NCBI RefSeq assembly: GCF_007558725.1
Contig: NZ_VLPL01000005.1
Span: forward strand, 124,001-188,000
Source of the DNA: Fluviicola chungangensis
Lineage (GTDB): Bacteria; Bacteroidota; Bacteroidia; Flavobacteriales_D; Crocinitomicaceae
Length of the DNA: 64,000 nt
Reading direction: 5' to 3'
Positions 12,359-63,922 of this stretch are shown here, piece after piece. The notes under the pieces are model-generated. The model was not told where the DNA came from, did not search any database, and was given only the letters and a program-made list of their open reading frames with translations. How positions within the stretch are numbered: position 1 is the first letter of the stretch; each line of letters opens with the position of its first letter. The position numbers were made by a program, and so were the translations under genes.

Positions 12359-12420
12359 CTCCCTCCTGGAAGAGGGATTAAGGGAGGTGGCCACCCCTCT
12401 TTATCTCCCCTCAAGGGGAG
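12359..12420. repeat. Dispersed GC-rich paired repeat, copy R1
   Basis: Two inverted halves meet at GGTGG/CCACC (12386-12395). Each half is itself a small hairpin unit of the kind CTCCCCTTGAGGGGAG-ATAAAG-GGGTGG. Related copies lie at 57049-57220, 57979-58053 and 63827-63922. It lies between the ccsBA promoter region and the 3' end of the zinc-ribbon gene. Confidence 0.75.
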
Positions 12421-12431
12421 AATGAAAAAAA

Positions 12432-20632: not shown

Positions 20633-20820
20633 AGCGAAGCTTTTGAAGACTAAATTACGACAAACGTTAGTGCGAAAGTAATTTGGGATCAGCGGAGCTT
20701 TTGAAGACTAAATTACGACAAACGTTAGTGCGAAAGTAATTTGGGATCAGCGAAGCTTTTGAAGACTAAATTACGACAAACGTTAGTGCGAAAGTAATTG
20801 AGGATCAGCGAAGCTTTTGA
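20633..20820. repeat. 58-bp tandem repeat, three full copies plus a partial fourth
   Basis: Units at 20633-20690, 20691-20748 and 20749-20806, then 14 bases of a fourth. Each begins AGCGAAGCTTTTGAAGACT; the copies differ by only a few bases (AGCGGAGC in copy 2, GAGG for GGG in copy 3). Each unit contains ATTAC...GTAAT flanking an AACGTT core, so it can fold. The unit length is not a multiple of three and there are no spacers. It fills the gap between two paralogous TlpA-like genes. Confidence 0.95.
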
Positions 20821-57048: not shown

Positions 57049-57220
57049 TCCCCCTTTGAAGGGGGATAAAGGGGGATGGCCTGTGTGAGCGGACCTTCGG
57101 ACGATAAGCCACACCTTTGGAAATCCTCACACCACCCTCCTCGGTCCTCCCGGTACTAACGTTTGGTCTTCGAAAGCTGTGCTTTCTCTTCTCAAGGGAG
57201 GAATTGGTCACTCCCCCTCA
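57049..57220. repeat. Dispersed GC-rich paired repeat, copy R2
   Basis: Left half at 57049-57080 (CTCCCCCTTTGAAGGGGG, then ATAAAGGGGGATGG). The right half starts CCACCCTCCTCGGTCCTCCC (~57133), is interrupted by ~40 unrelated bases, and resumes CTCAAGGGAGG (~57199). It lies just downstream of thiF and fills most of the gap 57043-57231. Confidence 0.65.
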
Positions 57221-57231
57221 ACGGAAGGGTG

Positions 57232-57942
57232 TTAAAACCGCAACTTCGTCATTTCCAAACTCAGCAAATCAAACACGTGAAAGGTATTTAAGTTGATTTC
57301 CAATTCAAGAATCACTTTCAACGCTTCATTGGCCATTAGCGTCCCGATAATACCGGGAACCACTCCCAAAACTCCGTTATCCGAACAATTCGGTACATCT
57401 TCTGCATTCGGCGGTTCCGGAAAAAGGTCGCGCAGATTTTTGCTTCCCTGGTGGTTGAAAACGGCCAATTGTCCCTGGAAGCCGAGAATGCTTCCGTAAA
57501 CGAGTGGTTTGCCCAATTTCACGCAGGTATCGTTTACGGTGTAGCGTGTGAGGAAATTATCACAACCATCAATTACCAAATCAAATTGGGAAAGAATGAA
57601 TTCCGCATTTTCGTCCGTCAGCGCACAATCAAACAATTCGATAACCGTATCCGGGTTTTGAGCTAAAGCCCGTTCCTTCGCTATTTCTGCTTTCTTTTTT
57701 CCCACATCTTCCGGACCGTACAAAATTTGCCGGTGTAAATTCGAGTGTTCAATGACATCAAAATCCACAATCCCGATTGTTCCAACCCCACAAGCCGATA
57801 AATACTGGATAAGCGGACAACCCAGACCACCCGCACCGATAACTGCCACCCGGGAATTTTTCAGTTTTACCTGTCCGAGCAATCCCACCTCATCCAGAAT
57901 GGTTTGCTTCGCGTAGCGTTTCGCTTCGTTGGGACTAAACAT
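57232..57942 (-). CDS. thiF: HesA/MoeB/ThiF family adenylyltransferase
   Basis: 236 residues. ATP-binding Rossmann motif GAGGLGCPLIQYL (~37-49), IVDFDVIEHSNLHRQ, GCDNFLTRY and NCSDNGVLGVVPG. In the thi operon it should adenylate the ThiS C-terminus so that sulfur can be added. It lacks the two CXXC zinc pairs of canonical ThiF/MoeB and is slightly short. Its start overlaps the extended thiH 3' end by 8 bp. Confidence 0.87.
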   Translation of the reverse strand: MFSPNEAKRYAKQTILDEVGLLGQVKLKNSRVAVIGAGGLGCPLIQYLSACGVGTIGIVDFDVIEHSNLHRQILYGPEDVGKKKAEIAKERALAQNPDTVIELFDCALTDENAEFILSQFDLVIDGCDNFLTRYTVNDTCVKLGKPLVYGSILGFQGQLAVFNHQGSKNLRDLFPEPPNAEDVPNCSDNGVLGVVPGIIGTLMANEALKVILELEINLNTFHVFDLLSLEMTKLRF

Positions 57943-59161
57943 TGGTGTCGTTTATTTTGGTAGAAATTATTGGTATCGCCACCTCCCTTTGTCTCTCCTC
58001 AAGGAGGGAAAGTGGATCCATATCCTCCTTTGAGGGAGGATTAAAGCGGGTGGTACTAAAGCTGCGGTCCCAATCTTTCCAAACGGCTTCATAACCATTA
58101 TCGCGGATTAACTGTGCAATCTCTTTTACGGAGCGCTCGTCCGAAATTTCGAATTGTTCCAACGATTCCGGTTCTACCACGTATCCCCCCGGGTTGGTTT
58201 TCGAACCGGCACTCATGGTGGTTACTCCCAACGGAATCACGTGATTTCTAAAGTGCTCCGATTCGCGCGTAGAAATGGATAATTCGACATCTTCGTTAAA
58301 CAAGCGGTAAGCACAGATCAGTTGCACCAACTCGCGATCTCCGACAATTACGTTGGGTTCAATAATTCCTTCGGCCGGACGCATTCTTGGGAAAGAAATG
58401 GAATACTTGGTTTGCCAGTACTTCTTTTGCATGTAATCCAGGTGTAAAGCACAGAAAAACGAATCCGTTCGCCAGTCTTCCAGTCCCAATAAAATTCCTA
58501 ATCCGATCTTGTGAATACCAGCTCTTCCACAGCGATCCGGTGTATCCAAACGGTATTCAAAATTCGATTTCTTTCCTTTCGGATGGTATGCTTTATACAC
58601 TTCCTGGTGATAGGTTTCCTGGTACACCAATACGGAATACACTCCCGCTTCATGCAAAACTCCGTATTCATCCTCGTCCAGAGGTTGCACTTCGATCGAG
58701 ATATTCGCAAATTCATTCCGGATCAAATCCATTACCCGTTTAAAGTACGGAACATGCACTGTATGATTGGCTTCACCTGTCACCAGCAAAATGTGATTGA
58801 ACCCCCGTTCTTTCAAATAGGCAACCTCCTGAAGAATTTCTTCATCCGTTAGTGTTTTGCGGCGAATTTTATTATCAAAACTAAAACCGCAATAGGTACA
58901 AATGTTGTTGCATTCATTGCTCAAATACATGGGGGTATAGAGCTGAATGGTTTTTCCAAACCGTTTCTGGGTCAATGCATTGCTTTCCTGTGCCATCTGT
59001 TCCAGGTATGGTTCGGCAGCCGGTGAGATCAGCGATTTAAAATCTTCGAGCGTGCGTTTGGATGAAGCCAGTGCGCGCTCCACATCTGCCGCCGTTTTGG
59101 CGTAAATGGAAGACTTGATTTCGTCCCAGTTGGTTGTTTTGAATAATTCTTTAAATATCAT
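57935..59161 (-). CDS. thiH: 2-iminoacetate synthase ThiH with repeat-derived C-terminal extension
   Basis: 408 residues from the ATG at 59161, 50 bp after thiG; an in-frame start at 59215 would overlap thiG. Radical SAM cluster C84-x3-C88-x2-C91 (SNECNNICTYCG). It splits tyrosine to p-cresol and dehydroglycine for the thiazole ring with ThiG. Family members end near VWKDWD (~365). Here ~40 residues follow; residues ~370-395 (TTRFNPPSKEDMDPLSLLEE...) are encoded by the GC-rich dispersed repeat at 57979-58053. The catalytic part is intact, so the tail is probably tolerated. Confidence 0.92.
   Translation of the reverse strand: MIFKELFKTTNWDEIKSSIYAKTAADVERALASSKRTLEDFKSLISPAAEPYLEQMAQESNALTQKRFGKTIQLYTPMYLSNECNNICTYCGFSFDNKIRRKTLTDEEILQEVAYLKERGFNHILLVTGEANHTVHVPYFKRVMDLIRNEFANISIEVQPLDEDEYGVLHEAGVYSVLVYQETYHQEVYKAYHPKGKKSNFEYRLDTPDRCGRAGIHKIGLGILLGLEDWRTDSFFCALHLDYMQKKYWQTKYSISFPRMRPAEGIIEPNVIVGDRELVQLICAYRLFNEDVELSISTRESEHFRNHVIPLGVTTMSAGSKTNPGGYVVEPESLEQFEISDERSVKEIAQLIRDNGYEAVWKDWDRSFSTTRFNPPSKEDMDPLSLLEERQREVAIPIISTKINDTNV
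57979..58053. repeat. Dispersed GC-rich paired repeat, copy R3, inside thiH
   Basis: CCACCTCCC...CTCCTCAAGGAGGG (57979-58008) and CCTCCTTTGAGGGAGG...GCGGGTGG (58024-58053) are two halves in the opposite arrangement to R1, 15 bp apart. They are read through in frame as the C-terminal extension of ThiH. Confidence 0.85.
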
Positions 59162-59211
59162 ATTCTTTTTTGTTTTGGAATATGGTGGGGACACGAAGCA
59201 TCGCGTCTCTA

Positions 59212-59976
59212 TCACATATTCAAAAATCCTGTCAATGGACTGGAAGCGTTTGCAGATCGGGAGATTGCCCCCAAACCGGCTTCATAGGCCATTCTTCCGG
59301 ATTCCACAGCCATTTTAAACGCCAAAGCCATCTCCTTGGGATTCGTAGCAACAGCGATTGCCGTATTGACCAATACTGCGTCTGCCCCCAATTCCATGGC
59401 ATGTGCAGCATGTGATGGCGAACCGATTCCCGCATCCACGATCACCGGAACGCGACTTTGTTCAATAATAATTTCCAGGAAATCAAGCGTTTTCAATCCT
59501 TTGTTTGTACCAATCGGTGCTCCCAACGGCATCACTGCTGCAGTTCCCACATCTTCCAATCGTTTGCACAAGACCGGATCTGCATGGATATACGGCAAAA
59601 TGACAAAACCCAGTTTCGCCAGTTCTTCCGTCGCTTTCAGCGTTTCGATCGGGTCCGGAAGCAGGTATTTGGGATCCGGATGAATTTCCAGTTTCAACCA
59701 ATTTGTTTCCATTGCTTCGCGCGCCAATTGTGCTGCAAAAACGGCTTCTTTGGCATTTCTTGCCCCCGAGGTATTGGGTAAAAGATTGATGTGAGCATGT
59801 TTCAGATGCGCCAACAAATCGTCTGTTTCTGTTTCCAGGTCTACCCGTTTCAGGGCCACTGTCACCAATTCGGATCCGGAAGCCAAAACAGCTTCTTCCA
59901 TTTGTTTGGAAGAGCCGAATTTTCCTGTTCCTAAAAACAAGCGGGACTTCAATTCTTTATCTGCTATTTTAAGCAT
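59212..59976 (-). CDS. thiG: Thiazole synthase ThiG
   Basis: 254 residues, TIM barrel. Markers: [12 protein letters not shown], the VTVALKRVD strand with the substrate-binding lysine, [13 protein letters not shown], and [30 protein letters not shown] for phosphate binding. It condenses dehydroglycine, DXP and ThiS thiocarboxylate into the thiazole phosphate. It overlaps thiE by 8 bp. Confidence 0.95.
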
Positions 59977-63826: not shown

Positions 63827-63922
63827 AACACTTCCTCCTTGAGGAAGGGATAAAGGGGTGTGACTAATATGGGGTTCTCCGTCTAATAGACCACCCTCCT
63901 CAGTCCTCCCTCAAGGGAGGAA
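63827..63922. repeat. Dispersed GC-rich paired repeat, copy R4, between thiS and thiC
   Basis: CTTCCTCCTTGAGGAAGGGATAAAGGGG...and CCACCCTCCTCAGTCCTCCCTCAAGGGAGGAAG are the two inverted halves, separated by ~30 bp. The right half closely matches that of R2 (CCACCCTCCTCNGTCCTCCC). It could form a strong stem in the thi operon mRNA. Confidence 0.8.

Follow-up and report, generated by a model that had tools for sequence, protein, structure and literature searches.

A translated inverted triplex-motif repeat as the probable origin of the ThiH C-terminal tail at the thiH-thiF junction of Fluviicola chungangensis

Results

Gene organisation at the thiH-thiF junction

The thiH gene lies in the window (the whole stretch of 64,000 nucleotides of Fluviicola chungangensis DNA that was analysed) with a thiF-like gene, a gene that is thiG-like by position, and thiE as its neighbours; it encodes a 2-iminoacetate synthase with an extended C-terminus (Table 1). 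The TIGR02351 profile ends at residue 365 and the last base of the WKDWD motif is at 58067, in agreement with a preliminary description of this DNA, which had placed the end of the family near VWKDWD. Beyond this motif the reading frame stays open across both arms of a 75-nt divergent inverted pair of repeat units (57979-58053), as that description also held, and it stops at a TAG within ATGTTTAG, in the first bases of thiF, so that the two genes overlap by 8 nt. The estimate of some 40 added residues was right for the tail as a whole, which has 43, although only 25 codons' worth of it is the element itself. The central proposal, that a dispersed repeat had become the in-frame C-terminus of ThiH with the operon left unbroken, is borne out by the thiH ORF and by the further copies in the genome.

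Both units in thiH are imperfect (1-2 mismatches), the subtype D unit departing from a perfect hairpin and mirror at one position. Elsewhere in the window, units lie in intergenic DNA downstream of thiF and in two convergent pairs (Table 1). Over the whole window a simple core pattern matches four times, against 0.21 expected from shuffles. Repeats of other kinds are also present: a different hairpin (GAGACGCGATGCTTCGTGTCCCC) directly follows the thiG stop codon, upstream of thiH (at about 59187-59214), and three 58-nt repeats (AGCGAAGCTTTTGAAGACTAAATTACGACAAACG...) stand head-to-tail at 20633-20820.

Table 1. Genes and repeat units in the window (contig coordinates in brackets)
Feature	Position	Strand	Remarks
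thiH (2-iminoacetate synthase), 408 aa, C-terminally extended	57935..59161	-	TIGR02351 E 4e-168, residues 3-365
ThiH tail after WKDWD, 43 residues, RSFSTTRFNPPSKEDMDPLSLLEERQREVAIPIISTKINDTNV	57938..58066	-	
ATGTTTAG, thiF start codon overlapping thiH stop codon	57935..57942	-	
thiF-like adenylyltransferase, 236 aa, ThiF/MoeB family	57232..57942	-	scores below the best curated cut-offs
Repeat unit, subtype D, TCCCTCC-TTGA-GGAGAGA-CAA-AGGGAGG-TGG, read in frame	57979..58009	-	
Repeat unit, B-like, somewhat decayed, TCCTCCT-TTGA-GGGAGGA-TTA-AAGCGGG-TGG	58023..58053	+	
13-nt centre of divergent pair in thiH	58010..58022	.	unit starts 44 nt apart, like other -+ pairs
Subtype A unit, intergenic, downstream of thiF	57049..57079	+	
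Convergent abutting pair (D + C), intergenic	12360..12421 (C15:136360-136421)	.	
Convergent pair (one decayed unit + B), intergenic	63832..63921 (C15:187832-187921)	.	

Anatomy and class of the repeat unit

Each unit has the layout Y7-TTGR-R7-N3-R'7, in which block 2 is the reverse complement of block 1 and block 3 (R') is the mirror of block 2. The hairpin of the preliminary description is formed by blocks 1 and 2; the third, mirror-related arm had been overlooked. Our search pattern (a T/C run, TTG, a purine run, three bases, a purine run and NGG) presupposes no relation between the two purine blocks. The commonest subtype (TCCCCCT/AGGGGGA/AGGGGGA) is symmetric and uninformative as to mirror versus direct repetition, leaving three main asymmetric subtypes (TCCTCCC/GGGAGGA/AGGAGGG, TCTCCCC/GGGGAGA/AGAGGGG and TCCCTCC/GGAGGGA/AGGGAGG) and two rarer ones (TCCCTCT/AGAGGGA/AGGGAGA and TCTCCCT/AGGGAGA/AGAGGGA). 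When 63 distinct asymmetric copies were compared, 90% of R' positions agreed with the mirror of R and 60% with a direct copy of it; the mirror relation covaries across the subtypes. Shuffled partners gave 71% (sd 1.6, maximum 76% of 2000 shuffles) in a test that takes related copies as independent; since copies of one subtype are related, the effective evidence for the mirror is the agreement of about five asymmetric subtypes.

This is the anatomy of an intrastrand triplex motif (PIT/TM), a class to which the unit is assigned here by sequence anatomy, and the repeat DNA may fold as a triplex. It has the three blocks of that class (a Y block, an R block that is its reverse complement and an R' block that mirrors it, joined by short loops), and also its dispersal in many copies with frequent inverted pairs (about 45 copies, and 36 inverted pairs in the sampled loci). 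The copies are not always intergenic, as those in thiH, LeuRS and IleRS of F. chungangensis (G000) and in HsdR and HsdM of G001 demonstrate; exclusively intergenic location has been reported for one species and does not belong to the TM definition.

Number and arrangement of copies

The pattern matched 47 times in the G000 genome (4.27 Mb, 19 contigs), against none for the reversed control, which leaves about 45 copies after merging of overlapping registers; in 13 other genomes of the genus there were 0 to 77 matches each, all these being counts of pattern-positive copies. In the wider family the pattern is present in 47 of 80 sampled genomes. When CCTCCCTYWRAGGRAGG was used as the search pattern it proved a poor probe (13 matches versus 9 for its reversed control), and Rfam held no family that matched the element.

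Nearly all G000 copies are intergenic: three of about 27 sites examined lie within clear genes (thiH, LeuRS and IleRS). No deep intragenic copy was found among about 38 sites checked in G003, so intragenic copies are a minority. Divergent pairs mostly have 44-45 nt between unit starts, as in thiH, and many convergent pairs are abutting, at 31 nt. Of 36 inverted pairs, 34 combine units of different subtypes (loci L131-L148, L179-L238 and L281-L340), which makes such a pair an imperfect palindrome; the instability generally ascribed to perfect palindromes may be the reason. At one locus near a contig end (L179, G000:C1:1080-2415), ten units of alternating orientation are found within 1.3 kb.

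In-frame copies in other genes

The LeuRS gene of G000 (983 aa; L186, G000:C2:71023-71053) carries one unit in frame, which reads HPPLSPFKGGE, and the IleRS gene (1175 aa; L189, G000:C12:293460-293534) carries a 75-nt divergent pair like that of thiH, which reads ATLLNPPSREEAISNSPLEGRQRGVET. These insertions immediately precede the editing-domain motifs VFTTRPDT and LAWTTTPWT, at points where the connection in solved synthetases is shorter. Across the genus the two loops differ in content and include the triplex-motif repeat in various forms. In four genomes the IleRS loop holds a hairpin, GTAGGTACGC...GCGTACCTAC, that is a dispersed repeat in its own right (G007 has 27 forward matches to it), and the LeuRS loop of other species holds sequences resembling further repeats (genome-wide copy number not counted). 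Hairpins related to GAGACGCGATGCTTCGTGTCCCC fill the IleRS loop of other species. Units are also read in frame in the type I restriction genes HsdR and HsdM of G001 (L335 and L336; G001:C10 near 258331 and 264283), and the peptide SPFGGGxRGR recurs in ThiH (G013), IleRS (G012 and G004) and HsdM (G001). Several further ORF overlaps in the scan that gave the two restriction genes involved short or antisense ORFs or probable start-codon artefacts and were left out of the count. The occurrence of in-frame repeats in ThiH and in essential tRNA synthetases suggests that junk-like repeats can be accommodated as protein in genes here. In the G002 assembly there are two IleRS copies, one with a triplex-type pair (L262, G002:C140) and one with the GTAGGTACGC hairpin (L273, G002:C314); this assembly is possibly a mixed bin.

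Among G000, G001, G009 and G002 (L259-L262) the IleRS pair shows 95-99% identity, whereas identity of the coding DNA on either side is 71-86% for five of the six species pairs and 71-93% over all six, the close pair G009/G002 having flanks of 92-93%. Similarly, the LeuRS unit is 100% identical between G000 and G007, with flanks of 86-89%. Constraint on the DNA could explain this conservation, as could gene conversion among the copies or their recent arrival on separate occasions. Since conservation of the IleRS copy exceeds that of the neighbouring codons, we tentatively suggest that triplex-motif repeats of Bacteroidota may be protein-invading mobile elements whose DNA, not their peptide, is constrained or homogenised while being translated, with a few permissive loops and gene ends acting as recurrent landing sites for unrelated families; at present we think this broader proposal rather less probable than its converse.

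The thiH-thiF junction in relatives

ThiH of this type is present in nine genomes of the genus. A single unit is in frame at the junction in G007 (subtype B), in G002 and G013 (subtype A) and, in decayed form, in G001, while G003 and G006 have decayed repeat remnants there. In G008, ThiH extends 10 residues past WKDWD and lacks the repeat, and the ThiH of G009 (390 aa) has no recognisable repeat. The extension had been taken for a one-off, which it is not, since it recurs at thiH across the genus and similar insertions occur at other genes. When the ThiH proteins of relatives were aligned, as the preliminary description had advised, the long-tailed ones mostly showed repeat similarity at the DNA level, with other subtypes; the finding that would have told against its reading, a shared tail devoid of such similarity, was not made, the 390-aa protein of G009 being the exception.

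That most species have a repeat at this junction suggests a long-established occupant that was later lost and replaced, and the history could be either one ancestral gain with two losses or several gains. In a thiH tree G003 groups with G006 (support 98/98) and G002 with G009 (100/100), deep branching within the genus being unresolved. As G002 and G009 are very close in thiH and yet differ at this site, turnover between them is recent. In Flavobacterium, thiH genes (L079-L130) end in other short dispersed repeats (AGTCGAAAGTC-like and TCTAAAATC-like), which give unrelated tails of 9-19 residues.

Such variety bears on the idea that selection has favoured the tail as a C-terminal extension of ThiH, built from repeat DNA and serving in binding, stability or localisation. 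AlphaFold2 (32-row alignment, pTM 0.80) predicts one short helix of middling confidence at residues 383-394, and the frame is preserved in seven species, both of which would fit such a role. However, the tails of these seven species cannot be aligned beyond the repeat peptide, ThiH lengths range from 375 to 408 aa, G008 manages without the tail, Flavobacterium ThiH ends in quite different repeats, and overlap with thiF explains the frame better; we find it highly improbable that the tail was selected as protein. Residues 361-408 were modelled with low confidence, which is weak evidence of disorder as there were few tail-bearing rows in the alignment. From the model, the ThiH tail is probably floppy and tolerated, with no function of its own, and it would then be neutral.

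Frame conservation and coupling to thiF

From WKDWD to the thiF ATG the distance in seven species is 124, 94, 70, 103, 25, 73 and 76 nt, and all seven lengths equal 1 modulo 3, as does that of the outgroup G032 (19 nt). The ATGTTTAG-type overlap occurs in the same frame in 7 of the 9 species of the genus with this ThiH and in the outgroup; in the sister pair G003/G006 the frame has been lost and thiH stops early. As this frame is common to the genus and G032, the thiH/thiF overlap predates the genus. We infer that the stop/start overlap would couple translation of the two genes, and that selection on it may maintain the frame.

It might be argued that an intergenic repeat was simply read through by chance, with no selection on frame or coupling and a stop that merely falls at thiF. 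The repeat is open on both strands, so read-through is not in itself improbable, and the Flavobacterium junctions end within repeats with no such regularity. Yet chance would have to bring seven junction lengths into one frame and to a common stop within ATGTTTA(A/G); agreement among six independent length changes would be expected in about 1 of 700 cases, although phylogeny lowers the number that are independent, and we judge chance read-through very unlikely.

The strong fold of the mRNA anticipated in the preliminary description is seen in prediction (coding strand -37.5 kcal/mol, z = -2.3), but its expected consequence for thiF is not: the element ends 36 nt upstream of the thiF start codon, around which the mean unpaired probability in the predicted fold is 0.60 with the element versus 0.63 without it. 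This stable fold, together with the element identities above those of the flanks in IleRS and LeuRS, which suggest conservation or homogenisation at the DNA level, could point to a repeat that is kept for a role as RNA or DNA, with its hairpin or triplex tuning thiF, stabilising the upstream message or pausing polymerase. Against such a role stand the practically unchanged accessibility of the thiF start, a terminator scan with no terminator-like site at the element, the lack of an Rfam family, and the variation of the thiH copies in subtype, number and decay, with none in G008 and none recognisable in G009; moreover, the E. coli motif is described by Holder et al. (PMC4666352) as having had neither promoter nor terminator activity in earlier work. 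Retention for an RNA or DNA role seems to us unlikely, if less so than chance read-through.

Discussion

We propose that the ThiH tail is a translated inverted triplex-motif pair at the thiH-thiF junction, kept in frame through the stop/start overlap, and we would put the probability of this at about 0.75. The likeliest history is that of a selfish repeat which arrived at a permissive gene end, where it was retained only in multiples of three. Repeats of the triplex-motif and other families, which are presumed to be mobile, would continue to settle in the genus at junctions between genes and in surface loops. Where the stop codon of thiH overlaps the thiF start (ATGTTTAG), ribosomes finishing thiH would be positioned at thiF, and because of this overlap a repeat would be retained in frame: insertions or deletions at the junction would survive if free of stops and if the length change were a multiple of three, and a surviving repeat would become C-terminal protein. 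The hairpin would be less of a problem for thiF, since ribosomes translating thiH would run through it and melt it before thiF is reached.

In E. coli MG1655 all 23 triplex-motif copies are intergenic (Holder et al. 2015, PMC4666352); that paper deals with TM/TMECO elements, formerly PIT, and cites work by Hoyne and Maher. The Fluviicola repeat resembles these in being short, G/C-rich and dispersed in tens of copies, in its Y-R-R' blocks with R' mirroring R, in its many inverted pairs and in its mostly intergenic location. It differs in that some copies lie inside reading frames, and in its 7-nt stem and distinct sequence. The main text of PMC4666352 does not mention Bacteroidetes, and our search of part of the literature gave no report of triplex-motif repeats in this group.

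Rickettsia palindromic elements (Ogata, Claverie and colleagues), as they are generally known and as outlined in PMC3733652, are found in frame in unrelated housekeeping proteins, where they encode 20-50 residues at permissive sites. The likeness to Fluviicola is in the kind of event, a palindromic repeat in frame in unrelated proteins; judged from that outline, the sequence and the phylum are different, and most Fluviicola copies are intergenic. GTAG/CGTC REPs form inverted dimers, some of them intragenic and coding for 20-30 aa; about 10% of the intragenic copies are at gene ends, tRNA synthetases are among the targets, and at recB different REPs occupy one site in two Xanthomonas (Di Nocera et al. 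2013, PMC3733652). The Fluviicola repeats share with these intragenic REPs the inverted dimers, the coding copies, the gene ends, the tRNA synthetases and the use of one site by different repeats.

Thus the kind of event is known, from Rickettsia palindromic elements and intragenic REPs, while the repeat class and the phylum appear to be new for such events. Coding palindromic repeats, described chiefly from these two systems, are now met in a different class and in essential enzymes of free-living Bacteroidota, with species caught at different stages: repeat absent, intact, decayed or replaced. These stages make it possible to ask how the repeats move, why they are conserved above the neighbouring codons, and whether operon coupling acts as a filter on insertions. 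There is also a warning for annotation: repeat DNA can lie behind a C-terminal tail or a loop insertion in genomes of this sort.

As to what might mobilise the repeats, a Y1_Tnp/RAYT transposase finds no support: a search of G000 for PF01797 at E <= 0.001 (six frames; assembly of 100% estimated completeness) gave no match, and matches do not track copy number across the genus, where 11 of 14 genomes have a match and G011 has three such genes and zero copies. In addition to this want of a REP-associated transposase in the genome, the Fluviicola unit is set apart from GTAG/CGTC REPs by its third, mirror block, and the GTAG/CGTC tag at the palindrome end is absent from the triplex-motif unit sequences. 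The other hairpin of the IleRS loop, GTAGGTACGC...GCGTACCTAC, does begin with GTAG.
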